The notes below the pieces were generated by a model. That model was not told where the DNA came from, made no database searches, and saw only the letters and a list, made by a program, of their open reading frames with translations. A stretch of 64,000 nucleotides of DNA from Nereocystis luetkeana (Eukaryota; Sar; Phaeophyceae; Laminariales; Laminariaceae): the NCBI GenBank assembly GCA_031213475.1, contig JARUPZ010000035.1:1-64000 (forward strand), read 5' to 3'. Both the position numbers and the translations under genes were made by a program. Position 1 is the stretch's first letter, and every line of letters starts with the position of its first letter. Shown one piece after another: positions 58 to 61,618 of the stretch.

Positions 58-168
58 ATACGGGGGGCCATAGTAAATAGGACCAATTACTGTGAGTAAA
101 AATAGGTAAATACATACCAGGGTAGGTTTTTGTGCATACCATAGGTCCTATTAACGATGGTCCCCCGT
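58..168. mobile_element. Family A TA-MITE, copy 1
   Basis: This is a roughly 110-bp element with inverted ends related to TTACGGGGGACCATAGTAAA and a left inner arm reading AAATAGGACC. It has no coding capacity. Relative to other copies it carries an 8-bp insertion (CCAGGGTA) in the middle at a TA dinucleotide, near position 109. Confidence 0.85.
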
Positions 169-207
169 AGTAACAGTTTTCTCCTTTTGATCGCGGGGTT
201 CCTTGGA

Positions 208-2461: not shown

Positions 2462-2567
2462 TTACGGGGGACCATATTAAATAGAACCTATGGTCAATTC
2501 AAAAACCTATATATTTTGTTTTTTTTTACTAACGAAATTTGGTCCTATTTACTATGGTCCCCCGTAA
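2462..2567. mobile_element. Family A TA-MITE, copy 2
   Basis: Both ends are intact (TTACGGGGG...CCCCCGTAA) and flanked by TA. Its right-hand TA is also the left-hand TA of copy 3. Confidence 0.9.
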
Positions 2568-2569
2568 TA

Positions 2570-2676
2570 TTACGGGGGTCCATAGTTAATAGGACCCAAT
2601 ATTGTCAGCAAAAGTGGTTATATATATCTAGGTTTTTATGTATACCATAGGTTCCATTAACTAGGGTCCCCCGTAA
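2570..2676. mobile_element. Family A TA-MITE, copy 3
   Basis: This is the middle member of a row of three, with TA on both sides shared with its neighbours. The inner arm reads TAATAGGACCC and the right end CCCCCGTAA. Confidence 0.9.
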
Positions 2677-2678
2677 TA

Positions 2679-2782
2679 TGACGGGGAACCATAGTAAATA
2701 GGACCAAGTATTGATGGTAAAAATAAGGAAATACATAGGTCTTTGCGTTTACCGTAGGTCCTATTTACTATGCCCCCCCGAA
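2679..2782. mobile_element. Family A TA-MITE, copy 4
   Basis: This is the third element of the row. The left end is mutated (TGACGGGGAACC) and the right end has lost the T of CCGTAA. Confidence 0.85.
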
Positions 2783-4435
2783 ACATCAATAGAAGGCGGC
2801 ACCGGCAACACCAACAAGCACAAACAAGCAAGCAACGACGCGATTTTGTCCAAATTCCACTCGCCACCACACGAGCACGCCCCACACCCCAAACAAACCC
2901 CAGACTCCACACGCCTCTCTAGAACCGGCGGAAGCGTTTATAGCACGCGAGGCCCGTCCGACCTTCCGGAACCCAACGAGGCCAATCAAAAAAGTCTGCG
3001 TCTGAGTGCGTGCGGCATATCTCCAAATTAACGACAGCGCGGCGAACACCAAACCAAGCCCCTCCGTCGTAATTTCTCGTACCAGTGCGAGCGAAGGTAG
3101 TGCGAGTCTCGATCGTGGAAGATGGCGCCAACAGAAGGGGGAAAAAGAAAAAAGGGGGCCCTCCTTTCCAGACGGCCGAAGCCTACTGCTGTTTTCACCC
3201 TGTTTTTTTTTACGCTTGTGTGTCTGTGAGTGTGTGTGTGTGTGTTTTTTTTTTCCGGCAGAGATTTCACGAAAAAAAAATGAAACATTTCGAATGTACA
3301 GCTCCATTTCAACTCCAACGTATGTATATATATACAGTATTAATAGTAGTACCAGATATCGTATATGCTTATTTTATTCTTCACTTTCACCGCGGAGCAA
3401 CACAAAAAACACAAAAACACACACACACGCACGCACGCACGCACAATCGAATCACCGTCCGCCATCAACACGATTCCCCAAAACTCTCCAAATCAAGCAC
3501 AGCGCACGCACACCATTTGACGACAGCTCTCAGCGACACCCATACTATATACAAGGTTCCCCTCCGGGAGGTACGTATACTATATACAAGGCGCTTCGCT
3601 CCGCGGGCGGCCTACGCCGCCCGCTACGCTCGCTCAGGAAGGAAAAAAGTACATCAAATTATGCGAAGCGAACAGAGGTCCACGATTGAGTTTAGTGTTT
3701 TCAAGGATCGTAATTGCAAACCGGCGACTTGATAATGCCAAGAGTCCCGCCGCCATGCTTCAGGAAAAAACAGCTCCGACGTCAGCTTGGATGCCACATG
3801 TACGCTTCGCGTCGCGGATGTCGTACGTACGTACATACACCCCAGGTAGGGTACTACTGTCTGTACTTATTTTTTTCTTTCGATATGCTCTATGTTCTGT
3901 ATGTACGAAGAAAGCGAAAGCACAGCACACGGCACAGCAGCAGAAACAATGAAAATGAAACCGAAAACTCGGAAAGGAAAAAAAATCCCCGTCCCCTCTC
4001 GTGTAATATTTTTCTGCCTGATTGGAACACCTTACACACCGTCGAAAGAAGAAAAGAAAAACCGCATAAAATAGCTTCTCTCTCAGCCTCGTACGCCGCC
4101 CGCCCCTCTCGCGACCACCTCGCTACCGATTCGGTCCGGGTAAAGCTTTTATCACTCTCTGCCACAATCAGCCCCGTCGCCCGCCCCGCGTGAAGCCCGG
4201 TGCTCACCGTGGCCGTCGTTCGCCAGCTCGATAACGTTGGTGTTCAAACTGCACACCTCCCTCTTTCAACTTCAGCGTGGTCTCAAAAACAAGCACCGCT
4301 TAAATGTTATCTTGCCCTCCCGAACGACCTTTATAAACTCGTACATACTCTATCAACAATCATAAATCGAAGCCAGACACCCGTTCATGCATCCCTCGTA
4401 TCTCGAGGCACACGCGACGCCTAGGCACGAAAGCG
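2783..4435. other. No gene recognised; microsatellites
   Basis: The stretch holds short T, A, (GT)n and (AC)n/(GCAC)n tracts at about 3205-3260 and 3395-3445. A tRNA-like or conserved coding signal was looked for and not found. A roughly 40-bp interval at 4204-4245 on the minus strand has AG and GT borders and could be a 3' exon of the TGS1-like gene, but the phase from the last confirmed exon does not give an open frame. Confidence 0.35.
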
Positions 4436-5162: not shown

Positions 5163-5577
5163 CGCGTGTTTGGTGGTGCAACAACAAACTCCTTTGCGAT
5201 AGCATTGCACATCCGCCGGTTCCGGCGCATACAACATACATCAATCCCCTATAACCCAGCAGCAACAAACAGCAAATGGTTCCGCCTCGGTCGGCCGATG
5301 CTGTTACTTCGAATAATATCCCCCGTCTATTATTAATAGTCCCTTGCAGGCCCCAGAATGGTCGACCCCATGATATGGGTACCCCCCCTCCCCCGCCCCC
5401 CCCCCACCTCCTCTGCCCCCCCCCCCCCCGTCCCCCCCGTCCCCCATCTCCTCCAACCCCCGTCCCCCCCTCCCTCCCCTCCCCTCCCCTCCCCCCCTCT
5501 CCTTCTCTTGCCCCCCCGCCCTCGCCTCCTTTCCCTCCCGCTCGATAAATCACAACCAACAAAAAAAAACGACCCAC

Positions 5578-7458: not shown

Positions 7459-8035
7459 TAGTGGTCCTGTTTCCTTTTTTGGCGGTTGAACCTGCGTGCA
7501 AGTGGTCGATCCGATTGTAGAAATTCGCTCCGCTCTCCGACTTTCACTCGTCAACGGTCGTACGTACGAGCCAACGACTTGCTCTCATGTCATACGTCTT
7601 GGTAAAATTATCTACCAGGTACTTCGCATATACTCCGGCCCGTGTTTGCACATATGTCAGGTATACACATTGGTTGCGTTGATGAGGTGTGATGGCAGCA
7701 TGCGCTGGCATTACGATTCGTACCGTACTACCTATTACTTCGTGCTATTAATAGAGTATATACGTACACAAAAAACATTTTGTCGGGTACTCTGCGCTTA
7801 TCACCATGTTTCGATCATGTGCTCTGCATGCGCCGGTACCAAAATGTCTCGACGAGTTGCTGCTCGTACGTACGACTATTAATAATTCAAAAGTGCATTC
7901 AAGCTCGTTGCTTGGCATTGCCTTGCTCCTCCAAAGGTCACTTATTGATGGGGAAAAAACAACAAAAAACATTGTGCTCAAAACAAGCGTTCATTCGACC
8001 ATATGCGCTCGTGGCAAAAGCCAGTCAGTGCTCAC

Positions 8036-9689: not shown

Positions 9690-9960
9690 AAGAGCTGAAG
9701 CAAGAATAAAAAATACGAAAAATATTTTTTTTTAAATGAAAAAAATGACAAAATGAAAAAAAGTGACCAAAATGAAGAAAATGAAAAACTGAAAAAAACG
9801 CAAGACAACAAGACAACAAAAACAAGGCAAACCAACAAAATGCACGGAAAAAAGACAAGAAAAAAAAAACGGGGGGAAAAAAAACCCAGCAGCAAACAAC
9901 AACTAACACAATGACCTGCCGGTAAACTAAAACAAACGTGGGAAACTATTAATACGAATT
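9690..9960. other. A-rich stretch, no gene
   Basis: Low-complexity A-rich sequence (AAAATGA, ACAACAA words). The minus-strand frames through it are T-rich composition artefacts. Confidence 0.5.
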
Positions 9961-9969
9961 TTCATACTA

Positions 9970-10074
9970 CTACGGGGGACCATAGTAAATAGGACCAAAT
10001 ATTGTTAATAAAAATAGGCAACTATATAGGTTTTTGTGTATACCGTAGGTCCTATTTACTACGGCCCCACGTAT
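9970..10074. mobile_element. Family A TA-MITE, copy 7
   Basis: The left end is CTACGGGGGACC and the right end CCCCACGTA, with both inner arms intact. Confidence 0.85.
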
Positions 10075-10551
10075 TAAAACATACCAGGGTAGCAACTTCC
10101 TGGTACTTGATACCAACAGGTATTAATAGAAGTTACCAACAACAACAACAACAAAAACGACGCGTAGGCCTTGGAAAGAGGACACCCTGATGCCTGGTAC
10201 CGGCACATGCTACCGGTACACATATTCATAGGGTGCCTGATACCAGGCCATACCTGCAAGGTTGCTTGATGTCTGATGCCTCCATGTCTTGTGTATACCT
10301 GGTACTACAGCTGTATATATACCTGGTACAACAGCCAGCACCACTACAGCTGAATACCTCGTGCTACTATAATATAAATACCGTATACCTCGTAGTGTGT
10401 CGTGTATGTGACCGCCGGGCAAGGTGCGACCACACGTACCGATGGTATTTTTTGTTTGTTCGTGCTGCTGTGTCGGTGCGATCGGTTTCGGAACTGGCAA
10501 ACGATCGAAGGTGCGTTTACACATAAATATGAAGATCCAGCGGCCCTTCCA

Positions 10552-10648
10552 TTAACCCTTTTAGAACCGCAGTCCCGTTTTGGGGATAAACCAGTCAAAT
10601 TTCAAGTAGTTTGTCCCAAAAACGGGACAGCGCTTTTAAAGGGGTTAA
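10552..10648. mobile_element. Family B TTAA-MITE
   Basis: TTAA flanks both ends. The inverted ends are CCCTTTTAGAACCGCAGTCC and a diverged right arm (GACAGCGCTTTTAAAGGGG). The TTAA duplication and CCC-starting ends match the piggyBac superfamily. It is non-coding. Confidence 0.85.
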
Positions 10649-10681
10649 CAGTTCCGACCACATCAGTGACGAATCATACTA

Positions 10682-10786
10682 TTACGGGGAACCATTGTTA
10701 ATAGGACCAATTATTGTTGGTAAAAATAGGGAAATATGTAGGGTTTTGTGTCTACCGTAGGTCCTATTTAATGTGGCCCCCCATAA
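10682..10786. mobile_element. Family A TA-MITE, copy 8
   Basis: This copy is tandem with copy 9 and shares one TA. The left end is TTACGGGGAACC and the right end CCCCCCATAA. Confidence 0.85.
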
Positions 10787-10788
10787 TA

Positions 10789-10880
10789 TTACGGGGGACC
10801 CTCGTAAATAGGACCACACATTGTTAGTAAAAATAGGGAAACATGTAGGTTTTTGAGTGCGCCGTAGGTCCTATTAATAC
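10789..10880. mobile_element. Family A TA-MITE, copy 9 (right end lost)
   Basis: It starts TTACGGGGGACC at the TA shared with copy 8. The right arm stops after GGTCCTATTAATACGA, so the last 20 bp are missing. Confidence 0.8.
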
Positions 10881-11273: not shown

Positions 11274-12128
11274 ACCTATGTCAATGGGAACGCAAAGTTT
11301 CCATAAAAAGTTTGAATTAAAACGATACCCGGTAGAATTTTTCAGGTGCCGTTTGCTATGTGCACGATTCTTCAATCGGAAAGGTCTAAACTTTTTGGAA
11401 AAAAAAACGAAAAAAAACATTCTGGGGCCGATGTTGGGCCAAAGTCGGGCCAAAATCGGCTTCAGAAAAACTCAGGCGGATGTTTGGTTCGAAGCGGCGA
11501 GATTCCGAGTCCTCGACAGACATGGATCGACACAACCAACGATTGCGTCATGAATTCTGAACGGAGTGCGCTCCTTAGGGGCTCCGACCCACCCTAGGGT
11601 CACCGTCTTCACACCATGGCAGGTGAAATATGGCGGGAGCTGGCTAGGCGTATAAAACAAAAGCAACTGGCCGTTGGTGTACAAAACAGATGACAAAAAA
11701 TCTCGATCCGTCTCGAATTGCAAAAAATGGTTCTTTTTTCAGGTTTGGGAGGATACCGTAGGACGCCGCCGGCAAGCTCTCGCCCCCTGGACCATGGATC
11801 CACGTGATATATTCGAGGCCGTCATACGTACTCGTTGGTCTTGCCCGGCATCAAGCGGGTTGGCCATGGGCTGAGTCTATGTTGACATCGAACGTCTATC
11901 GTCGCACGAGCTGATTTTTATGAGTGTGTTGACAATTTGCAACGAGAAAAAGCAAATTGCGCCGCCTGCAGTCGTTAGAAAAATAAAGGAACAAAAATCG
12001 AACATTTTTTTTTTCCTTTTTGCCCGAAGCGGCGGAACGAGGATATTTTCGGCTGTTCTTTGAAAGGGATACCTGGTATGTACTTTTGAAAGAAAACCTT
12101 TCGACTTCGCGTTTCTATTGGCATAGGT
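11274..12128. mobile_element. Family E DNA element, copy 1
   Basis: This is a roughly 855-bp element with inverted ends of about 25 bp. The left end is ACCTATGTCAATGGGAACGC and the right end, read inwards, ACCTATGCCAATAGAAACGC. It aligns along its length with 28731-29558 (shared words: GACCCACCCTAGGGTCACCG, GGAGGATACCGTAGGACGCC, GGGCTGAGTCTATG). Neither copy has a convincing transposase frame, so it is probably non-autonomous. It carries one TACCTGGTA insertion near 12070. Confidence 0.75.
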
Positions 12129-12274: not shown

Positions 12275-12379
12275 TTACGGGGGGCCATATTAAATAGGAC
12301 CTACGGTAGACACAAAAACCTATATATTTCGCCATTTTTGCTAACAATATTTGGCCCTATTTACTACGGTCCCCCGTAA
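12275..12379. mobile_element. Family A TA-MITE, copy 10
   Basis: This is an intact copy, the first of a row of three units sharing TA dinucleotides. Confidence 0.9.
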
Positions 12380-12404: not shown

Positions 12405-12509
12405 TCACGGGGGGGCATATTAAATAGGGCCTACGATACACATTAAAACCTATATATTTCGCCATTTTTACTGACAATATTTGGCCCTATTTACTACGGT
12501 CCCCCGTAA
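12405..12509. mobile_element. Family A TA-MITE, copy 11
   Basis: The left end is TCACGGGGGGGC and the right end CCCCCGTAAC. It is the third unit of the row. Confidence 0.85.
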
Positions 12510-12645: not shown

Positions 12646-12860
12646 TTACGGGGGGCCATAGTAAACGGTACACACAAAAAAAAGCCAATAAATTCGCCTA
12701 TTTTTACTATTACGGGGGGCCATAGTTAGTAGGACCAAATATTGTTGGTAAAAATGGTTAAATGTATACCTGGTAGGTTTTTAAGTGTACCATAGGCCCT
12801 ATCGACTACGGTCCCCCGCAATAAAAACTTGTTGGGTCCTATTTACTACGGTCCCCCGTA
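12646..12860. mobile_element. Family A TA-MITE, copy 12, split by copy 13
   Basis: The left part (12646-12709) ends TTTTTACTA. The right part resumes at about 12824 and ends ACGGTCCCCCGTAG. Copy 13 sits exactly at the TA of this element's TTTTTACTAACAAT word. Confidence 0.85.
12710..12821. mobile_element. Family A TA-MITE, copy 13, nested in copy 12
   Basis: The ends are intact (TTACGGGGGGCC...CCCCCGCAA) with TA on both sides. It carries the insertion CCTGGTA at the central TA, at about 12772. Confidence 0.88.
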
Positions 12861-14960: not shown

Positions 14961-16084
14961 GGTGGTAAGGTGGGGGGGGGGGAGAGACAGGAAGGGGTCA
15001 ACGAAAGCCCTCCTCTCCGGCGCGCAACCTCCCCTCAAGTGTAACTAAAATACTAACCAGGTCAACGAAAATGCCTTGTACTGCTTGTCCGTATTACACG
15101 ATCTATATATCTCTATATATATGTTACTCAGGACAGACATGTAAGGAGCGCCTTGCTCTTCATCCTATTGAGGAGGCGCGCGAGCCTTTTTTTTTCTTGG
15201 TTTTCCGAGGAGAAAAAAACCTCTTCAGCACGGATCGTACGAGAGTAGAGTGGGTTGTTTTTTAGTTTCTCTGTAAAGGTGTGTGTGATTCAACATTTTT
15301 CTCGGCCACGTCTGTCCCGGCGGGCTCCGTGCACGCACACACACTTTTTAGGAAGCGTTCTCGTGTTGGCGCGGTTGTAAGTCGTTCAGAGTTGTTCCAG
15401 CCAGGTGCGGCAACGTGTGTAGGCACATGGCTGGGCCATGGTTAAACAAAAAAAAACAGAACCGTAAAATATCGTAACAGTTTTTAGTTTTTTCAATTCC
15501 ACCGAACGAAACCAACGCTCGTAAGAGTACTCGTAGGCAGAATGCGTCTGTCCACAGCAACACTTGGCGCGTGTCCCTAACACATGCTGCAGGGGGTATT
15601 GTCAGGGGTATTGTCGGGCCCACCCCCCGACTGATGAGGGAACGGAGAGGCTCTGCTAACTGTAGATGTCGTACAGTAGTAGTAGTAGTGTGATACCTGC
15701 TACGAGAAGCTTCTCTCTGTTGGGCACGTGTCAGCTGCAGACTTTTCGTCTTCAAAAACAAGCCGAAATTCGAGTTGGGGAACCAGGAAACACACAACAG
15801 CAGTATCGAGTACGAGAACAAAGGGCCCAAGAGTTGGACCGACAAGCCGAGCGTACAGCGACGCTGCCTCTGGCCTCGTCTGCCCTACGGCTGCTGCTGC
15901 TGCTGCTGCTGTTGCTGCGTTTTTTTTTTTCTCTAGAGAAGAAGTCCAACGTCACGGATGCATACGACCGCGTACTATTAATACGTTTATGTTCGTTCGT
16001 GTAGATTCAGCACAACACTCCGTATTCGCACATCATGAGGCATTCATTCGCAGATTTGACTACAGGTACTGAGGTCGCGCCATA
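14961..16084. other. No gene recognised
   Basis: The sequence is mixed. A word set at 15165-15225 (GAGGCGCGCGAGCC, CTTGGTTTTCCGAGGAG) recurs at 41126-41185 and marks a small dispersed repeat. Open frames through 15348-16004 show no recognisable domain and contain CTG/AGT tracts. Confidence 0.4.
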
Positions 16085-16261
16085 TTACCACCAACTACTA
16101 TTACTATTATTAATAATACAACTCTGTAGTATACTAGTACCTACCAGGTACCAGGTATTATAATAGACGGTCATTATATTTCCGTCCAAAAATGGCACCG
16201 CAGCAGGGCTGCACGTACCGTACATATGTAGACCATGTGTGAGAATTGCAACGCTTTTCAC

Positions 16262-20184: not shown

Positions 20185-20281
20185 TTAACCCCTTTAGAAC
20201 CGCAGTCCCGTTTGGGGACAAAACTACTTGAAATTTGACTGGTTTGTCCCCAGAACGGGACTGCGGTTCTAAAAGGGTTAA
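20185..20281. mobile_element. Family B TTAA-MITE inside a family D module
   Basis: This is an intact hairpin element with TTAA at both ends. The flanks TTCTTCACA and ACCATTCTTTCTACC are joined without it (TTCTTCACATTATACCGTTC) at 28150 and, inverted, at about 24440. Those copies serve as empty sites. Confidence 0.88.
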
Positions 20282-20425
20282 ACCATTCTTTCTACCGGTC
20301 GACATCCAGCACAACCAGTGTCCGTGCCGATTCTTCAATCCTACAATAGAAGAGATACAAGTTCTGAGGTCACAAAGCTACGCCACAGAGATACTACGTT
20401 GCCACGTATTCAGTAAGCACAGAAG
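20282..20425 (-). mobile_element. Family D 3' module
   Basis: The module lies upstream of the LINE frame and matches 24268-24460 in the opposite orientation (GTCGACATCCAGCACAAC, GATTCTTCAATCCTA, GAGATACAAGTTCTG). Confidence 0.6.
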
Positions 20426-23494: not shown

Positions 23495-24265
23495 GAGGGG
23501 TAGAAGGGAAACTGCGGTAGACGAAAGTAGGAAGGAGATGGCAGACAGGGTAGCAAGGCACCAGGCCGACTAGGAAGTAGAACATGACCATACTACTAGT
23601 GCCACCAACTGGTGCAGCTGGTTCGAACGTGGTATTCCCTTGTCTTCTCTTCTTGTTTTTTTTTTTTTTTCTTTCTTGCGCTGACTCTCCGTGATTTTCA
23701 TATTATTTTTTCTCTTCCTCTTCCTTTTCTGATTGATAAGCCTAATGGAAGGAGCCGTGTGGCGTGGTTGGAAGACGAACCTGCTCTGCTCGTTTCGTAT
23801 TGTCTGACGCCAAGGGGCTGGGCATAGTTGACGAACGCAGGGCGGAGACGGCAGTCTGGGTAGCACGGTACCAGGCGGATTAGCAGGGAGAACCTGGCTA
23901 TACTACTCGTGCCTCAAGCTGCTGCCGCCACCTGGAAGGTGCTTTGGGCTTTGGTCTGCCTGTTATTTCCCCTTTGTTATTTTTCCTTGTTACTTATTTC
24001 CGTGGTTTTTTGTCTTACTCTGTTTACAAGCAGTGGTGTTTTTTCTTATTTTATTTTATTTGCTTTCTTTTCTCCAGCTCGTTCTTTTTCAAGTGTTGGC
24101 CACCTCGCCTGCGGGGGGGGGGCACGACAGATTGTTTCTCCTAGATTTTGCTTTCATTTTTTTTCTCTTTTTCTCTTTCGATTTGTCTACCTTGTTTTTG
24201 TTTTCTCTTTGATTGTTTCTTTTCGTTTCACTATTTCATAGATTGCGTATGTCGTGCCTGTCGTA
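23495..24265 (+). mobile_element. LINE copy 1, 3' untranslated region
   Basis: This T-rich non-coding tail is shared with 31458-31836 (GCCACCAACTGGTGCAGCTGG, split here by words such as GACGCCAAGGGGCTGGGCA). It continues to about 24265 and is mirrored by an inverted copy at 24463-25490. Confidence 0.75.
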
Positions 24266-24462: not shown

Positions 24463-25490
24463 GCACGACATACACATTCTATGAAATAGAGAAACGAAGG
24501 GATCAATCAAAGGGAAAACAAAAACAAAGAAGACAAATCGAAAGAGAAAAAGAAAAAAAATGAAAGCAAAAACTGGAAGAAACAATCTGTCGTGCCCCCC
24601 CCCCCGCAGGCGAGGTGGCCAACACTCGAAAAAGAATTGCTCGAAAAAAAAAGGAAAAAGTAACAAAAACACCACTGCTTGTAAACAGAATAATACAAAG
24701 AACCAAGGAAAAAACAGTAGCAAAGGGAAAATAACAGGCAGATCAAAGCCCAAAGCACCTTCCAGGTGGCGGCAGCAGTTTGTGGTACGAGTAATATAGC
24801 CAGGTTCTCCCTGCTAATCCGCCTGGTGCCTTGCCACCCAGCCGGTCGCCCCGGTGGTTCAAGTAAGTGGTTAACCTCGAATTCTACTTGTTTGAGTCCT
24901 GGGTTCGAGCCCCAGGTGGGTCGGACTTTGACTGTATTTGCGAAAAATAAAATAAAAAAAGGATTCAATTGTTGAGAGCGCCTTGCAAGCGTGGGTAGGC
25001 ACAATTCGATGCGAGTCGACGAGGGAAGAAAAGGCTGAAATCTTCTCGCGACAAAAAATGAAGGCACTTACCGTAGCGGGAAGGGGGGGGAAGAGCCTCT
25101 GCTATGTGACCCCGGATCTGAGTTACGAGTTGGAAGGAGAGAGAGAAGAAGTATGAGAAGATGGGCGAAGATAATGAATGGGATGAGCAACAAAAAAAAA
25201 AAAAATAAAGACTGCCATCTCCGCCCTGCGCTCGTCAACTATGCCTAGCCCCTTGGCGTCAGACAATACGAAACGGGCAGAGCAGGTTCGTCGTCCAACC
25301 ACGCCACACGACTCCTTCAGTACGGCTTATCAATCAGAAAATGAAGAGAAATAAATAAAATGAAAATCACGGAGAATCAGCGCAAGAAAGAAGAAGAAAA
25401 AAAAGAAGAAGACAGGGGAAGACCACGTTCGAACCCGCTGCACCAGTTGGTGGCACTACTATTATAATAGTATTAATAGTATCGCCATGT
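24463..25490 (-). mobile_element. Inverted LINE 3' region with nested SINE
   Basis: The reverse complement of the LINE tail runs from ACAGGCACGACATAC to CCTTGCCACCCAG at about 24840, then is interrupted by a SINE. It resumes at about 25208 with ACTGCCATCTCCGCCCTGCG and ends TGCACCAGTTGGTGGCAC. Together with 23570-24265 it forms a long hairpin-forming repeat. At 25458-25486 it carries two TA-site insertions not present in the other copies. Confidence 0.8.
24841..25207 (+). mobile_element. tRNA-derived SINE, copy 1
   Basis: The head (24841-24916) looks like a tRNA gene. It has a box A-like GGTGGTTCAAG-AAGTGG, a box B GGTTCGAGCCC and a T-arm stem CTGGGTTCGAGCCCCAG. A tRNA-unrelated body follows and then an A-rich tail at about 25190-25205. 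It sits inside the inverted LINE tail, splitting CCCAG from ACTGCC. Such elements are transcribed by RNA polymerase III from the internal boxes and moved by LINE enzymes. Confidence 0.8.
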
Positions 25491-25937: not shown

Positions 25938-26166
25938 TTTACTACACTCAAAAATTATTGTATATACGTACTCGTATCGATATTAAATAATACCTGGTAG
26001 ATTCCGAACAAGATATTCGACATGATGTGATACTAATAATATTAATATTAATAGTAAATTTCAAAGTCCTTTGGACCCGGGGCATGATGAGCAATAAAAT
26101 GTACCTGGCACCAGGTACCGGATACGATATATATCGATCGGTACTCAATCCGGAGGACCTTTTTAA

Positions 26167-26454: not shown

Positions 26455-26597
26455 CTACGTATTGCTAAACCTACTCGGAGAAATCATCGTACGATACTAT
26501 TAATAGTGCATCGAGCGAGTATATATACGTTCGCGGCTCTGTTCTTATTTTTGTTTTTGTCTGCCCGAATTTGGATGATAGATATTTGTCTCTATTA

Positions 26598-27507
26598 GGC
26601 CACTTCTTATGCAGTCGGAAACTATTAATAGGATTGAAAAAGCCGGTCTCCGATTGGAGACCAAAACATCTAATCTTTCTTGTGCAGTTGAAAAAGCGCC
26701 TTTTCAATAAATAAAAAAAAACGATTATGATTTCCAACTGGACCAGACAGCAGACAGTCGAAAATACTACTGAGATTTCCGATCCAACTCGTCAGTCGGA
26801 TTCGTGCATCGGAAATGTTAGAAAGTCCAGCCGCACACGCGTACGAGTATCACACACCCACACAACACCACGACATACGACACAACCCCACACCGCAACA
26901 CCGGCGACGCTGGCTTGGCTGCTGGTCACTTCTGCTGCTGCTCGGCTCTAGTCAGCGATGATATATCCTCACCTATGTCCGTCAGCAGCACGTGGCAGCA
27001 CCCGATGGCCGCAGTGTGCGGTATCGATGATGACCTTTTGCCAACTGCTGCGCTGGCTGTAGCTTTGGCAACTGTCGAAGCAACCCAGCGTCTTGATGGC
27101 CTCGAGGACGAGATGGAGGAGAACGCCCGGCGTGTGAAGCTCACACGCTGCTCGAGGAAGAAGCGAGACATCAGCATGTATGTGTGGTTGGGCGCAGCTG
27201 CTGGAGGATGACGACCTCTCTGACGCCACCAGCACTAGGACGAAGCAGTTTGGAACCGACTGCCGTCCACCCTACCCTTTTTTCTCGGTGCTATGTACCT
27301 GGTACAGCAGCAGTGGTCGAGCTACACTCACTCACTTACATCAAGCGTCTCCTGGTCTCCAGAAAAAAACACAAAAACTGGTATATTATATTCGATCCGA
27401 CGGACGATAAGAAGGGTCAGGGGTAGCTATTCGCAATCAAGTCGGAAAAATAACTGATCGGAAACCGGCTTTTTCAATCCTAGTTCCCGACTGCATAAGA
27501 AGTGGCC
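26598..27507. mobile_element. PIF/Harbinger-like DNA element, 910 bp
   Basis: The left end is GGCCACTTCTTATGCAGTCG and the right end is its complement. The inverted similarity extends about 55 bp (AGGATTGAAAAAGCCGGT). Both sides carry TTA, the 3-bp duplication typical of PIF/Harbinger elements. The interior has exon-like frames at about 27000-27180 (DDDLLPTAALAVALATVEAT, then RRVKLTRCSRKKRD), but no DDE transposase. It may be a non-autonomous or gene-carrying derivative. The left arm has an extra TTAATA relative to the right arm. Confidence 0.75.
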
Positions 27508-27808: not shown

Positions 27809-28139
27809 TTGTACTACCCTATTAATACCTTACGTGGACCGACCGCATCTCATTTATTTTCTTGATTTTTTTCCCTGCTGTTCCCCGAATTCGGTAAATA
27901 AGTAGTTACGACTATTTCCAGTACGGATTCATTTACCATCGTCTGCCCGAATTCGAAAAAAACAAGTAATTATTTACAGTACGAATTTATTAGCCATACT
28001 CGTGGACCGCGCCTCGTTTATTTTGGTGATTTTCACGTTATTTTTTCGTTTTTCAACCAGTTTCAACCTGTAAAATACTTGTTGGACCGGTCTTGGTGCA
28101 AAGCGGAAGCAATACGCGTATATACTGCTGTACAACATG

Positions 28140-28215: not shown

Positions 28216-28357
28216 ACTGCTGTTATTAATAGGTAAGTTGCGATGTCCATTTATCCATCCATGTACGCCTATGACATGAGCTGCGACCCGCGATGGTTTC
28301 ACACTATCACACCTACCAGGTACTTCTTACTGCTGTATATATACTAGGGTCATTCTT

Positions 28358-31457: not shown

Positions 31458-31836
31458 AAGGGAAACTGCGGTGGACAAAAGTAGGAAGGAGATGGTAGAC
31501 AGGGTAGCAAGGCACCAGGCCGACTAGGAAGTAGAACATGACTATACTACTACAGAAGTGCCACCAACTGGTGCAGCTGGTTCGAACGTGGTATTCCCTT
31601 GTCTTCTCTTTTTGTTTTGTTGTTTTCTTTCTTGCGCTGATTCCCCGTGATTTTCATTTTATTTCTTTCTCTTCCTTTTTTCGATTGATAAGCCTAATGG
31701 AAGGAGTCGTGTGGCGTGGGTTGATGACGAACCTGCTCTGCTTGTTTCGTAATGTCTGACGCCAAGGGGCTGGGCACAGTTGACGAACGAAGGGCGGAGA
31801 CGGCAGTCTGGGTAGCAAGGTAACAGGCAGACTAGC
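31458..31836 (+). mobile_element. LINE copy 2, 3' untranslated region
   Basis: This matches 23495-23890 and ends GCAGACTAGCAG, directly followed by a (CTGCCTGT)n tract. Confidence 0.8.
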
Positions 31837-36352: not shown

Positions 36353-36457
36353 TTACGGGGGAGCATAGTAAATAGGACCAAGTATTGCTCGTAAAAAAAG
36401 CTAAATATATAGGTTTTTGTGTGTACCGTCGGTCCTGTTGAATATGGTCCCCCGTGA
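36353..36457. mobile_element. Family A TA-MITE
   Basis: TA precedes TTACGGGGGAGC. The right end is CCCCCGTGA, one base off consensus. Confidence 0.88.
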
Positions 36458-38194: not shown

Positions 38195-39375
38195 GTGCAC
38201 AAAATAGATTAAAAAATATATCGACGAGTACTACTACTGTATTCGTCTCGAGAATGGCAAAAAATGGCCTTTACTTCAGGTTTGGGAGGATACCGTGGGA
38301 CGCCACCGGCAAGCTCTTGCCCCCTAGAACATGGATCAACCTGATTTCTTCGAGCCCGTCATCTATACTGCAATATTACGGGGGAACACAGTAAATAGGA
38401 CCAAATATTGCTAGTAAAAATATAGCTAAATAGATAGGTTTTTGTGTGAACCGTAGGTCCTATTAAATATGGTCCCCCGTAATAGTTGATCTTGCCCGCC
38501 ACCAAGCGGGTTGGCCGTGGGCTGAGTCTATGTCGAGATCGAGCGTCTATCGTCGCTGAAAAAAACTTTTGTACTTCGCGCTTCCATTCGCATACTATAG
38601 CAGGCATTTTACAGTACAACAGCAGCAGTGGATTACTTTTTGCGGTACAGCACCCGCACTATGAAAAAAAAATGCATCCATCTCGAATGGCAAAAAATTG
38701 TTTTTTTTTCAGGTTTGGGAGGATACCGTAGGACGCCGCCGGGAAGCTCTTGCCCCCTAGAACATGGATCCGCCTGATTTCTTAGAGCCCGTCATCGATA
38801 CTAGTTGATCTTGCCCGCCACCAAGCGGGTTGGCCGTGGGCTGAGTCTATGTCGAGATCGAGCGTCTATCGTCGCACGAACTGAAAGAAAACTTTTGTAC
38901 TTCGCGTTTCCATTCGCATACTATAGCAGGTATTTTACAGTACAACAGCAATGGATTACTTTTTGCGGCACAGCACCCGCACTATGCAGAAAAAAATGCC
39001 CAGAAAAGCTTTACGACTATTAAAAATACCAAATAATATTGTTACGAGTATACTGCTCGTTGTATGTGCTTCGTCGGAAAAGTGCGCACGTCGTATGATG
39101 AAAAAACAATTGGCTGTTGGTGTGCACAAAATAGATTAAAAAAAAAACTCTATGAGTACTACGAGTACTGTATCCGTCTCGAATGGCAAACATGTTTTTT
39201 TTTTTCAGTTGTGAGGATACCGTAGGACGCCGCCGGCAAGCTCTTGCCCCCTAGAACACGGATCAACCTGATGTATTCGATCCCGTCATGATACGAGTTG
39301 ATCTTGCCCGCCCCCAAGCGGGTTGGCCGTGGACTGAGTCTATGTCGAGATCAGGCGTCTATCGTCGCACCAGCC
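38195..39375. repeat. Tandem partial copies of family E
   Basis: Three diverged units start near 38195, 38625 and 39115. Each contains GCACAAAATAGATT or similar, AATGGCAAAAAAT, GGAGGATACCGTAGGACGCC and GTTGATCTTGCCCGCC. They match the right half of family E. The first is interrupted by a family A element at 38376. Confidence 0.7.
38376..38482. mobile_element. Family A TA-MITE with empty-site neighbour
   Basis: TA lies on both sides. The repeat unit at about 38797 reads ATACTAGTTGATCTTGCCC without the element, against TACTGCAA-TA-element-TA-GTTGATCTTGCCC here, a direct empty-site comparison. Confidence 0.92.
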
Positions 39376-39810: not shown

Positions 39811-40320
39811 TTAACATTATTAGTAGTACCGCCAGTTGCTCTTTATTAATAATAGTAGTTGGGTTGGGCCCATTGGAATCACGGCCTGTGTGCCGGGTTG
39901 TGCCCCGGGGACGGCACGGACCGTCGCTCGCTTCGTTGATTGCCCTCTATTAATAGTATTCGTTGACCCTTGTGCGTTATTCGATCAACCCCCCCCCCGC
40001 TATTCCTCGATAGGACCCGAAGACATATTTTTTACGAAAATCTATTCGAATTAATTCATTTTTTTTTCCCCTATTCGATTACCATGAAAAAGGTTTCTCG
40101 TTGAGACGGGCCCTAAATGTGTTTAATACCTGGTATTTTTTTATTATAGTACGACCACGAGTACAACAGTGTTGACTGTCTTTGTAACCGTCGTGCGTAC
40201 AAGCGCAATATACGTGTCAAGAAATCCCGCCGCAGACCACTGCGGCTGCTGTGTCACTAATATGGGAATGACAATCACGGCACATCTGTCACTTTCGTCG
40301 TTCCCACTCATCTAGTATAA
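39811..40320. other. No gene recognised
   Basis: Intergenic sequence with several TATTAATA words and one TACCTGGTA. Confidence 0.4.
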
Positions 40321-40325
40321 TAATA

Positions 40326-40428
40326 TTACGGGGGATCATATTAAATAGGACCTACGGTGAAGACAAAACCTATATATTTCCCTCTTTTTACCAACAATAT
40401 TTGGTCCTACTTACAATGGTCCCCCGTA
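40326..40428. mobile_element. Family A TA-MITE
   Basis: TA then TTACGGGGGATC. The right end is TGGTCCCCCGTA. Confidence 0.88.
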
Positions 40429-41600
40429 CTGATAGTAGGCTGTAAAAGAGTCTGGTGCATCATCACTGCGTAGTAGTCTAGCAGCACAAATAAGTCTAAT
40501 TCGCATCAGCGTCAAGACGAAAAGTAGCTCGCTTTGACTTTCCAATCCTCTGTGTAGTACAGACATGTATTAATAGTATGTTTGTCTCTGTCGATCACAT
40601 TGCTACCCTCGTATATGTCGTCCCCCGATTTAAGAAACAAAGAGTTATAGGATCAAAATGCGCCACTCGCTAGCCTGCCTACAGAATTCACGAACATCAC
40701 CTCCTGCGCTATTGGACCACTTACAGGTGTGTGCATACAGCGTTTTTAGAGAGGCCAAGAACATGAACGATTATCATAGTGAGACTCACCAACAAACACG
40801 TACGTACGTACTCTTGTGCGGGTACGTCATCTGCTACAACATTTACACAGAGTATTTCAAACATTTTTCAGTGTCTTGGCGTGCCTGTCACGTTTAAACT
40901 GTTGAGCCGTGTGGGCTTTTCTTAGAGGCGAGGGGAGACATTCTGCGATATATATACAGATATCGGCAGACGTGCTTTCCCGTATACATCACCGCCGTAT
41001 GGGCCAGGCAAACCACAACCTATTGATGGTTGTTGGGGGGTGGGGCGCCCTGCTCCCGCCGTGCTATCGTACTGCTGTACTGGCATACCACTCTGTCCCG
41101 TAATATAGTAACCGTATTTTACCATGAGGCGCGTGAGCGCGAAGCGCGAGCCTTTTGTTCTTGGTTTTCCAAGGAAGAAAAGCAGACGTTCAGTCTGAGA
41201 GTCAAACCCCGCCTGCTGGGGTGCCGTCTGGGCCGGTGCCGACTGGTCTCTCTCCACACTCGTACCAACTCCAACTAACTGCGACTTCACAAAAAAAAGA
41301 GCAAACTGAGAACAGCGCTCGAATGCATTTCATCGAAGGCAATAGCAATGTGAAGATTTTTTCATGGAGGATCATTACAGGTTCACGGAGGATGATCACG
41401 AAGGTTAAACGGCAGTGCATGGAGGTGACAATTCTAAACACACACGTGCCATTCCGGAGAGGTGTATTACAGCAGTTGCGCGCGCGTGCGAGGGGCAAAT
41501 ACGTGGGATGCAAGCGTGAAAAAACACATCCAGGTATGGTTTAGACATCGCGTTGATGGCGGTTTGTTTTTCGTTTCAAGGAGCTTAACAGCTCCTTCGT
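40429..41600. other. No gene recognised
   Basis: A 48-bp stretch at about 40990 (CCGCCGTATGGGCCAGGC, AAACCACAACCTATTG) repeats 39523-39570. The GAGGCGCGTGAGCGCG / CTTGGTTTTCC set at 41126-41185 repeats 15165-15225. Other frames are unconvincing. Confidence 0.4.
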
Positions 41601-47833: not shown

Positions 47834-47941
47834 TTTACGGGGGGCCATAGTTAATGGGACCTATGGTGTATACATGAAAACCTATATATTCAACCATTTT
47901 TACTAACAACATTTGGTCCTATTAACTATGGTCCCCCGTAA
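47834..47941. mobile_element. Family A TA-MITE
   Basis: TTTACGGGGGGCC...GGTCCCCCGTAA, inner arms intact. Confidence 0.88.
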
Positions 47942-53839: not shown

Positions 53840-53945
53840 TTACGGGGGACCATAGACCTATGGTATACATAAAAACCTATGTGTTTGACCATTTTTACTA
53901 TTAATAATAACAATATTTGGTCCTAATAACTATGCCCCCCCGCGA
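53840..53945. mobile_element. Family A TA-MITE with internal scar
   Basis: The ends are recognisable (TTACGGGGGACC; CCCCCCCGCGA). Relative to the consensus TTTTTACTAACAATATTTGG it has a 9-bp insertion at the TA (ACTATTAATAATAACAAT). About 12 bp are deleted after CCATAG. Confidence 0.8.
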
Positions 53946-56578: not shown

Positions 56579-56683
56579 TTACGGAGGACCATAGTAAATA
56601 GGACCAAATATTGTTAGTAAAAATAGGTAAATATATAGGTTCTTGTGTGTACCGTGGGTCCTATTTACTATGGTCCCCCGTAG
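56579..56683. mobile_element. Family A TA-MITE
   Basis: TTACGGAGGACC...GGTCCCCCGTAG; interior close to the consensus without scars. Confidence 0.88.
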
Positions 56684-57567: not shown

Positions 57568-57840
57568 AATCATCTATTAATAGATCATCTACAGGTAGAT
57601 CATCATCTACATATAGATCATCTAGTTCCCGACCAGTGGTTGTGAGAGGTTTCGCAGGATCTGTGTCGTGGTACAGGTCCAACCCAGGCAAACATGTGCT
57701 ACTGTACTGTAGATGGTGCAGACTGTTGGAGTCCCACCCTGCAACACGAGCTAGGTATGTCATATCATATGTACAAGATCGGGAACAGATGACCTATCCG
57801 CCTTGAATTATCTGGATCATCATCGAGTCGTTATCGGTCA
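57568..57840. repeat. GATCATCTA-rich repeat, copy 2
   Basis: Diverged copy of 34452-34742, rich in AGATCATCTA words. Confidence 0.6.
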
Positions 57841-59303: not shown

Positions 59304-59408
59304 TTACGGGGGGCCATAGTTAACAGGACCAAATATTGTTAGTAAAAATGGTTAAACATATAGGTTTTTATGTGTACCATAGGTCCTGTTAACTATGGTC
59401 CCCCGTAA
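59304..59408. mobile_element. Family A TA-MITE, best-preserved copy
   Basis: Perfect TTACGGGGGGCCATAGTTAA and TTAACTATGGTCCCCCGTAA ends with TA on both sides. Useful as the family reference. Confidence 0.95.
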
Positions 59409-59940: not shown

Positions 59941-60037
59941 TTAACCCCTTTAGAACCGCAGTCCCGTTTTGGGGACAAACTACTTGAAAATGGAGTCGTG
60001 TGTCCCCAAAACGGGACTGCGGTTCTAAAAGGGTTAA
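59941..60037. mobile_element. Family B TTAA-MITE, first of a tandem pair
   Basis: TTAA at both ends, CCCCTTTAGAACCGCAGTCC and its complement. The right TTAA is shared with the next element. Confidence 0.9.
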
Positions 60038-60131
60038 CCCTCTTAGGACCCCAGTCCCGTTTTGGGGACAGACTACTCATAATTAGAGTACTTTGTCCCC
60101 ACATATGGCAGTGCGGTGCTAAAGGGGTTAA
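60038..60131. mobile_element. Family B TTAA-MITE, second of a tandem pair
   Basis: CCCTCTTAGGACCCCAGTCC and a diverged right arm (GTGCGGTGCTAAAGGGG), TTAA after it. Confidence 0.88.
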
Positions 60132-60885: not shown

Positions 60886-60983
60886 TTAACCCTTTTAGAA
60901 CCGCAGTCCCATATGTGGGGACAAACCAGTCAAAATTCAAGTAGTTTTGTCCCCAAACGGGACTGCGGTTCTAAAGGGGTTAA
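60886..60983. mobile_element. Family B TTAA-MITE
   Basis: TTAA both ends; CCCTTTTAGAACCGCAGTCC and GGACTGCGGTTCTAAAGGGG, a near-perfect hairpin. Confidence 0.92.
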
Positions 60984-61618
60984 CAACCACTACTCGTACG
61001 TATTTCGCCGCCTTTTATTTATACGTGCTGCTGTTGTAGGTTAGGTATGATATCTCACATACCCCACTAAATCCGAGTGGTTAATAAAAAAAGGTGGGTG
61101 TGTAGCATGCTGTATGCACAGCAGTACTCGTAGGCCGTCGGTGTCACAATGCATCAGGAATCATCCTTGAGGTTGCTGTGATCTCATCATGAAGTCTGGT
61201 CCTAATGTACCCTACCTAGCCTACGTACTGGTGGTTGGCATCTACTAATACGGCTGTGTGTGGTGCTCGTATGAGCTGTGAACGTGTACGTACTTGTTTG
61301 GCGTAATTCCCAAGCACCGGGCACCACTCTGCACGGGAAAGTAAGGCCGAATGTAAGGGCCCTTATGGTATAAACGAGAATTTCAAACGGTCCTTATATT
61401 TCCGTCTTGAGTGGCTGTTGTTCATGGTGTACCAGGTACTGGTACTAAACTCGTACGGACACTGGTGGGTACACCGAAGGTACCTGGTACGTACTCGTAG
61501 CACGCAGGGGTATGGCGTAGGTATGAGTCTTCACTCGTGCCTTGCAATGTATTATTGATACTAATAGTAGTATACTTCTGCTGCTGCTGCTGCACTCAGT
61601 ACACAAGTCGAAACCCAC
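60984..61618. other. Intron 1 start, no exon recognised
   Basis: Contains several CCTGGTAC and CCAGGTAC words and one ACGGTCCTTATATTTCCG repeat copy. Confidence 0.4.

Follow-up and report, generated by a model that had tools for sequence, protein, structure and literature searches.

We report that the word TATTAATA, which is scattered through the genome of the brown alga Nereocystis luetkeana, is in most of its occurrences very probably the excision scar of a miniature inverted-repeat transposable element (MITE) of 105 bp, flanked by the dinucleotide TA and here termed family A. The word is in excess genome-wide and is gained, recurrently, at single TA sites, one of which is found empty, filled and scarred; element and word also have a target preference in common. 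The window, to which bare coordinates refer, is the whole stretch analysed, positions 1 to 64,000 of contig JARUPZ010000035.1 of assembly GCA_031213475.1 (G000:C35:1-64000). The search space for genome-wide counts is the assembly of 465,085,209 bp, with contigs of up to 21.9 Mb, and a sample of 20 stretches of 10 kb (L009-L028, 200 kb) makes up 264 kb together with the window.

Excess of the word and its gain at single TA sites

The window holds 21 copies of TATTAATA, against a mean of 0.72 and a maximum of 4 in 100 dinucleotide shuffles, much as an earlier note on this DNA had put it (some 20 further words, about one by chance). It is the most numerous of the 8-bp palindromes of the window, and its 65-fold excess under an order-2 model is the highest of the 25 palindromes listed; under an order-1 model TATATATA, with an excess of 32.5, stands slightly above it at 31.0. 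The longer word TATTATAATA occurs twice (16156 and 25460; expectation 0.04). The enrichment extends to the genome, the check that the same note had proposed: 93,112 copies of TATTAATA stand against 10,689 of the reversed word ATAATTAT, a control of the same composition that is likewise an AT palindrome, which is an 8.7-fold ratio and a surplus of about 82,000 words. Judged by this control, about one ninth of the genome's TATTAATA words are expected anyway.

One such site, seen at 25455-25490 of the window, lies in the tail of a long interspersed nuclear element (LINE). The pattern CATACTA-N{0,30}-GTGCCACCAACTG finds 381 tails genome-wide and its reversed control none. Among the 100 listed copies, which were classed by hand, 65 read bare CATACTACTAGTGCC, 13 carry TATTAATA (11 at the second TA, one at the first and one in the nested form TATTATTAATAATA), one has TATAATA, and the remaining 21 comprise six length-neutral substitutions and 15 further length variants, which include cases of slippage by TAG or CTA as well as sequences that differ from the scar by a base or two. 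In three LINEs genome-wide an intact 105-bp family A occupies the same TA, which is duplicated. The nested form, from L039, is what would be expected if a scar had itself been scarred at its central TA.

The scarred LINEs are scattered on a tree of 40 tails (26 of the 65 empty copies, plus all 14 that have a scar or TATAATA) from which the scar site had been excluded, and one origin is rejected. The nearest relative of a scarred copy is an empty one in 10 of 13 cases, no fewer than 11 changes are required for the 13 scar rows, and the approximately unbiased test rejects a single scar clade (p-AU 0.00014). With three element rows added, the scars take 12 changes (shuffled mean 11.3) and the elements 3/3. 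The word is absent elsewhere in the 40 fetched tails, so target context matters. Two of the 120 matches listed for the LINE protein are named, both from Ectocarpus, at 64% and 59% identity.

A second repeat, TTCAATCC-TA-GAAGAGATACAAG, offers another such TA. It has 2,289 exact empty copies genome-wide and 185 in which 2-30 nucleotides (nt) are inserted after the TA. The 100 insertions listed include 43 of TTAATA, six of TTATA, two each of TAATA and TTAAATA, and one each of TTTAATA and TTTTAATA, the others being nested or double forms, one-base variants, four single CCWGGTA and slippage; 83 of the 100, with the inserts typed from the listing, terminate in TA. Family A itself occupies this TA at L012:3317-3424, and seven of the eight paralogue rows listed there have a bare TA. 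The words might have been ancestral in the repeats; instead, in two of these repeats single TA sites have gained them repeatedly.

Paralogues of 77 TATTAATA loci were also compared (15 of the loci from L001 and L005-L008, some overlapping, L007 and L008 being overlapping fetches). A TA opposes the word at 25471, 26623, 53899 and L014:9088, and by eye also at L016:618; the TA rows opposite L011:2076 (72% identity) and L015:5320 (a GTA repeat) are weaker, and the remaining rows are gapped or uninformative.

Most of the individual readings of the earlier note hold. Both scar words that it placed in the inverted LINE tail are there, side by side (Table 1). The arms of the 910-bp element, both read on one strand, are GGAAACTATTAATAGG on the left and GGGAACTAGG on the right, and differ by a TTAATA at a single TA and by one further base. 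At 23590-23599 the LINE tail does read ATACTACTAG, but the copy near 31545, which had been given the same reading at roughly 31550, has ATACTACTACAGAAGTGCC. As to the positions quoted for further words, 7746, 9947, 40568 and 57575 are exact, and four lie 3-5 bases off (15971 for 15976, 26503 for 26498, 39945 for 39948 and 53902 for 53899).

Family A, its target and a model of excision

Across the window and the sample, family A is a MITE of about 105 bp, most copies of which are flanked by TA, with the ends TTACGGGGGACC...GGTCCCCCGTAA, that is TTACGG...CCGTAA. A genome search with one copy (12275..12379) scored 40 of 4,620 candidates, and all 39 listed outside the window, at 92-95% identity, were fetched with their flanks: 38 are 105 bp long and 37 have TA on both sides. 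Exact ends TATTACGGGG...CCCCGTAATA occur at 16,185 places genome-wide, the reversed control at none, so that at least this number of full-length elements remains. One copy (59304..59408) folds as a near-perfect hairpin (z -9). In L072, L084 and L085 a resident family A has a flank that reads TTAATA or ATTAATA, an insertion beside or into an older scar.

Element and word prefer the same target. At positions -3, -2 and -1 the flanks of the high-identity elements (n=76) have T in 62%, A in 74% and C in 59%; those of TATTAATA (n=124) have T in 51%, A in 55% and C in 53%, and C precedes family A in the sample (n=52) in 52%. By comparison, C is found at -1 in 21% of all TA and, among other TAWWWWTA words, in 16%. 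The specific mark that element and scar have in common is thus this C, and not the T or the A. This preference and the empty, filled and scarred states of the LINE site bear out the claim that most of these words are scars.

The words are more numerous than the elements. The window has 21 words and 16 full-length elements; the 200-kb sample has 41 words, three reversed words and 13 full-length elements, or about three words per element; and the genome has a surplus of about 82,000 words against 16,185 elements with exact ends. The ratio is rough, as inherited copies raise the scar count and decayed elements escape theirs. The element had been called highly active, and the evidence upholds this for the past only.

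From this record we infer a transposase, the stagger of its cut and a route of repair. Family A inserts at TA, preferring TAC-TA-GTA, and duplicates the TA. A putative Tc1/mariner-like transposase, acting in trans, would then cut a few bases inside the ends, so that either flank keeps a few terminal bases, and these leftovers would be sealed between the two TAs by end joining, with a net gain of 6 nt (TTAATA). Our preferred stagger is one of 3 nt, whose TTA 3' overhangs would give TTA/TAA in register 3, TTAA in register 2, TTAAA/TTTAA in register 1 and TTATAA in register 0. TTAA would dominate since, besides plain end-to-end joining, its register would be the sole 3-nt one free of mismatch, with two bases paired. 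Such overhangs predict TATTATAATA, TATTATA/TATAATA and TATTAAATA/TATTTAATA, with TTAA first, whereas a 2-nt model predicts no 5- or 6-nt forms.

Cuts staggered by 2 nt, with TT overhangs, are what the earlier note implied for most scars when it described 2+2 and 3+3 products. Its view of the scars as terminal bases between two TAs stands, and the spectrum at one site fits 3-nt TTA overhangs in registers 0-3 slightly better: among the 55 insertions in six classes of our own choosing, enumerated joins of 3' overhangs explain 54 with 3 nt and 51 with 2 nt. Joined simply end to end, TT overhangs yield TTAA, and in register 1 also TTA and TAA, but TTAAA and TTTAA (3 of the 100 listed) and TTATAA (16156 and 25460 in the window) need further steps. 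A 2-nt stagger is doubtful in our view, while plausible enough to be kept in mind.

Scars also occur within scars, as TATTAATATTAATA at 26040-26053 of the window and as TATTATTAATAATA in L039; both fit re-insertion into the TA of an older scar followed by a second excision.

Points against excision and other origins of the word

Several observations weigh against reading the words as scars. Several one-base neighbours of TATTAATA are likewise in excess, and several of these overlap microsatellites or family A flanks, which weakens any dating of scars by their neighbours. T at -3 and A at -2 each stand before 50% of other TAWWWWTA words. In the second repeat, 45 of the 100 listed insertions fall outside the six TT..AA-like classes, and TTTTAA fits neither register scheme. 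An aligned paralogue is present in the sample for only 18 of the 77 loci compared. In one repeat family the copies at L009:8317, L014:2455 and L015:9208 all have the word and a fourth has the one-base variant TATCAATA; some words, these among them, are inherited with repeat copies. When repeat copies of the sample are compared in an open scan, 42 of 534 insertion sites of 3-14 nt are TA-type gains; only two of these are exactly TTAATA, with one TTAATAATA and one CTATTAATA at a single site, and four others are CCTGGTA. The strongly supported branches of the LINE tree, which is shallow, force by themselves only at least four scar origins, and L031 and L032, which are 2 kb from each other and 98.5% alike, may represent one event. 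The transposase that would act on family A is putative. The case is carried by the genome-wide single-site searches rather than by the open scan of the sample.

Amplification of a few scar-bearing master repeats, with no recurrent excision, would account for the repeat family that has the word in its sampled copies and for the likeness of L031 and L032. The LINE scars are, however, about as scattered as shuffled labels, with one clade rejected, and 16 of the 21 window words are without an aligned paralogue in the sample; we consider this origin very improbable.

Still less probable is that TATTAATA is a fixed target, such that an element ending in CGGGGG enters the central TA of a pre-existing word and the words are empty targets. 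The parse TAT-TA-CGGGGG...CCCCCG-TA-ATA is possible, and L072, L084 and L085 do lie beside TTAATA or ATTAATA. We reject this reading because the empty counterparts of filled sites, both at the LINE tails and at the repeat around L012:3317, have a bare TA; it would also leave the gains of TTAATA at TA unexplained.

The two weakest candidates we rule out, at next to no probability for either. Slippage of AT-rich microsatellites, or composition, might make the word, and TATTATTA/TAATAATA are likewise over-represented and TAG or CTA slippage is seen in some LINE tails, but the reversed word, which has the same composition, is present in 8.7-fold fewer copies, other TAWWWWTA words have no C preference at -1, and an exact TTAATA makes up 43 of the 100 insertions listed for one site. 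The words might also be remnants or targets of a co-resident piggyBac-like MITE flanked by TTAA, which is common and shares the TTAA core, but by eye none of 21 such MITE ends has TA directly before the TTAA. PiggyBac elements duplicate TTAA and excise precisely, which would not add TTAATA at a TA; family A is flanked by TA and leaves scars.

Features of the window, related systems and meaning

The scars and the family A copies of the window are collected in Table 1.

Table 1. Scar words and family A elements in the window
Position	Strand	Feature	Remark
3338..3345		TATTAATA, probable scar	word search
5331..5338		TATTAATA, probable scar	word search
7746..7753		TATTAATA, probable scar	word search
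7877..7884		TATTAATA, probable scar	word search
9947..9954		TATTAATA, probable scar	word search
10121..10128		TATTAATA, probable scar	word search
10872..10879		TATTAATA, probable scar	word search
15976..15983		TATTAATA, probable scar	word search
16108..16115		TATTAATA, probable scar	word search
16156..16165		TATTATAATA, probable 6-nt scar	word search
25460..25469		TATTATAATA = TA-TTATAA-TA, 6-nt scar, inverted LINE tail	commonest tail is CATACTACTAGTGCC
25471..25478		TATTAATA = TA-TTAA-TA scar, adjoining TA of same LINE tail	two paralogues with TA there (one row TA; one gap owing to neighbouring scar)
26040..26053		two overlapping TATTAATA words (TATTAATATTAATA)	consistent with scar gained inside scar
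26498..26505		TATTAATA, context ACTATTAATAGT	word search
26623..26630		TATTAATA scar, left arm of 910-bp element	bare TA in right arm
27820..27827		TATTAATA, probable scar	word search
28224..28231		TATTAATA, probable scar	word search
39844..39851		TATTAATA; diverged paralogue L019 has TTAATT there, so probably predates duplication	
39948..39955		TATTAATA, probable scar	word search
40568..40575		TATTAATA, probable scar	sole paralogue gapped there, uninformative
53899..53906		TATTAATA within family A copy	TTAATAATA gained at TA of ACTAACAATATTTGG
57575..57582		TATTAATA, probable scar	word search
58..170	+	family A MITE, 113 bp, TA...TA	
2462..2567	+	family A MITE, 106 bp, TA...TA	
2570..2676	+	family A MITE, 107 bp, TA...TA	
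2679..2783	+	family A MITE, 105 bp, TA...CA	
9970..10074	+	family A MITE, 105 bp, TA...TA	
10682..10786	+	family A MITE, 105 bp, TA...TA	
12275..12379	+	family A MITE, 105 bp, TA...TA	genome-wide query
12405..12509	+	family A MITE, 105 bp, TA...CA	
12710..12821	+	family A MITE, 112 bp	internal CCTGGTA gained
36353..36457	+	family A MITE, 105 bp, TA...CA	
38376..38482	+	family A MITE, 107 bp, TA...TA	
40326..40429	+	family A MITE, 104 bp, TA...TG	
47835..47941	+	family A MITE, 107 bp, AT...TA	
53840..53945	+	family A MITE, 106 bp, TA...TA	bears scar at 53899
56579..56683	+	family A MITE, 105 bp, TG...TA	
59304..59408	+	family A MITE, 105 bp, TA...TA	hairpin

Among open reading frames of the window, Pfam finds a reverse transcriptase in two of seven (one below the curated cut-off) and nothing in the other five; a plasmid collection gave no match. 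A piggyBac-like MITE of about 95 bp, with ends TTAACCCTTTTAGAACCGCAGTCCCG and a TTAA duplication, lies at 204-303, 10552-10651, 20185-20284, 59941-60040 and 60887-60986.

A second word, TACCWGGTA, resembles a scar left by another element that targets TA. It occurs 116 times in the 264 kb, against 2.4 expected, with 78 of these in the 200-kb sample, and is gained at TA sites without the C preference at -1. It and the forms CCCTGG/CCAGGG have been gained in family A copies and other repeats of the window (115, 7393, 12767, 1492 and 12070), and the same type of gain at single TAs is seen at L015:1290 and at L026:6089 and 8773. At 12070 a single TA has gained CCTGGTATGTA, which its paralogue at 28.7-29.6 kb lacks; this may represent two scars in succession. 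A boundary scan of the 264 kb places TTACGGGGG, the family A end, first, with 31 distinct left contexts; next come the scar words, the end of the TTAA-flanked MITE and short simple words. It yields no clear parent for TTAA or CCWGG scars among other TA-flanked MITEs. A scan for terminal inverted repeats (TIRs) shows at L025:9343-9433 a TA-flanked inverted-repeat pair beginning CCAGG, with 87 bp between the TAs and 2 mismatches in 16, which is a possible parent of the CCWGG scars. Further over-represented TA-X-TA words in the 264 kb are TACAGCAGTA/TACTGCTGTA (24 vs 0.7) and TACGAGTA (57 vs 8.8).

Family A has features of the Tc1/mariner (IS630) superfamily, namely the TA duplication (37 of the 39 high-identity copies, with bare TA at empty sites), TIRs (exact inverted 8-bp ends at 16,185 places, and a hairpin) and footprints of terminal bases between two TAs (the LINE site and the second repeat); the transposase, which is the key criterion, is putative. 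It also differs from PIF/Harbinger elements with their 3-bp TTA/TAA duplication, for the TTA on its left and the TAA on its right do not form a direct repeat, and its empty sites are bare TA. The footprints of Stowaway MITEs and rice Osmar5, of the Tc1/mariner superfamily, are TIR fragments of 1-4 bp adjoining TA duplications, and the Stowaway TIR consensus is CTCCCTCCRT (PMC1925063). Family A resembles them as a short TIR element (105 bp, within the Stowaway limit of <500 bp) with a TA duplication and TIR-end footprints between two TAs, but its TIR is TTACGGGGG and it has one dominant, uniform scar word in a genome-wide surplus of about 82,000. With the cut-and-paste elements Tc1, Mos1, Sleeping Beauty and ZB it has in common the TA target and short footprints, given as 2-4 bp for Tc1/mariner and 0-3 bp for ZB (PMC7913693); unlike theirs, its evidence is the genome's fossil record rather than an assay, and its transposase is putative. 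Genome-scale insertion and excision counts exist for Mariner-type elements of two rice species, where precise excision is rare (PMC4423477); ours is likewise a genome-scale count of excisions, but here the sampled words outnumber resident family A about 3:1, and the two ratios are measures of different quantities. Events of this kind are thus known, while the family, the uniformity and the scale look new within the literature covered; among the open-licence papers listed, titles and abstract openings contain no report of such scars in brown algae.

Excision is usually inferred from a few loci or from comparisons of strains, whereas one exact word makes it countable in a single genome, here with the parent element still at more than 16,000 places alongside its scar word. 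One site displays every step (empty, filled, scarred and re-scarred), the spectrum of scars informs on cut and repair, and past activity was greater than the number of element copies suggests. In an exon the dominant scar, a net gain of 6 nt, would keep the reading frame, whereas minor 3-nt scars, a gain of 5 nt, would break it. We suggest, tentatively, that this genome keeps a countable record of well over 100,000 excisions by at least two TA-targeting systems, family A with its TTAA scars and an unseen CCWGG system without the C preference, with little repair from a template; that the scars, among the most over-represented words, outnumber family A elements and are re-invaded through the new TAs that they bring; and that this flux may be tied to a template-free stage of life, such as a haploid phase.
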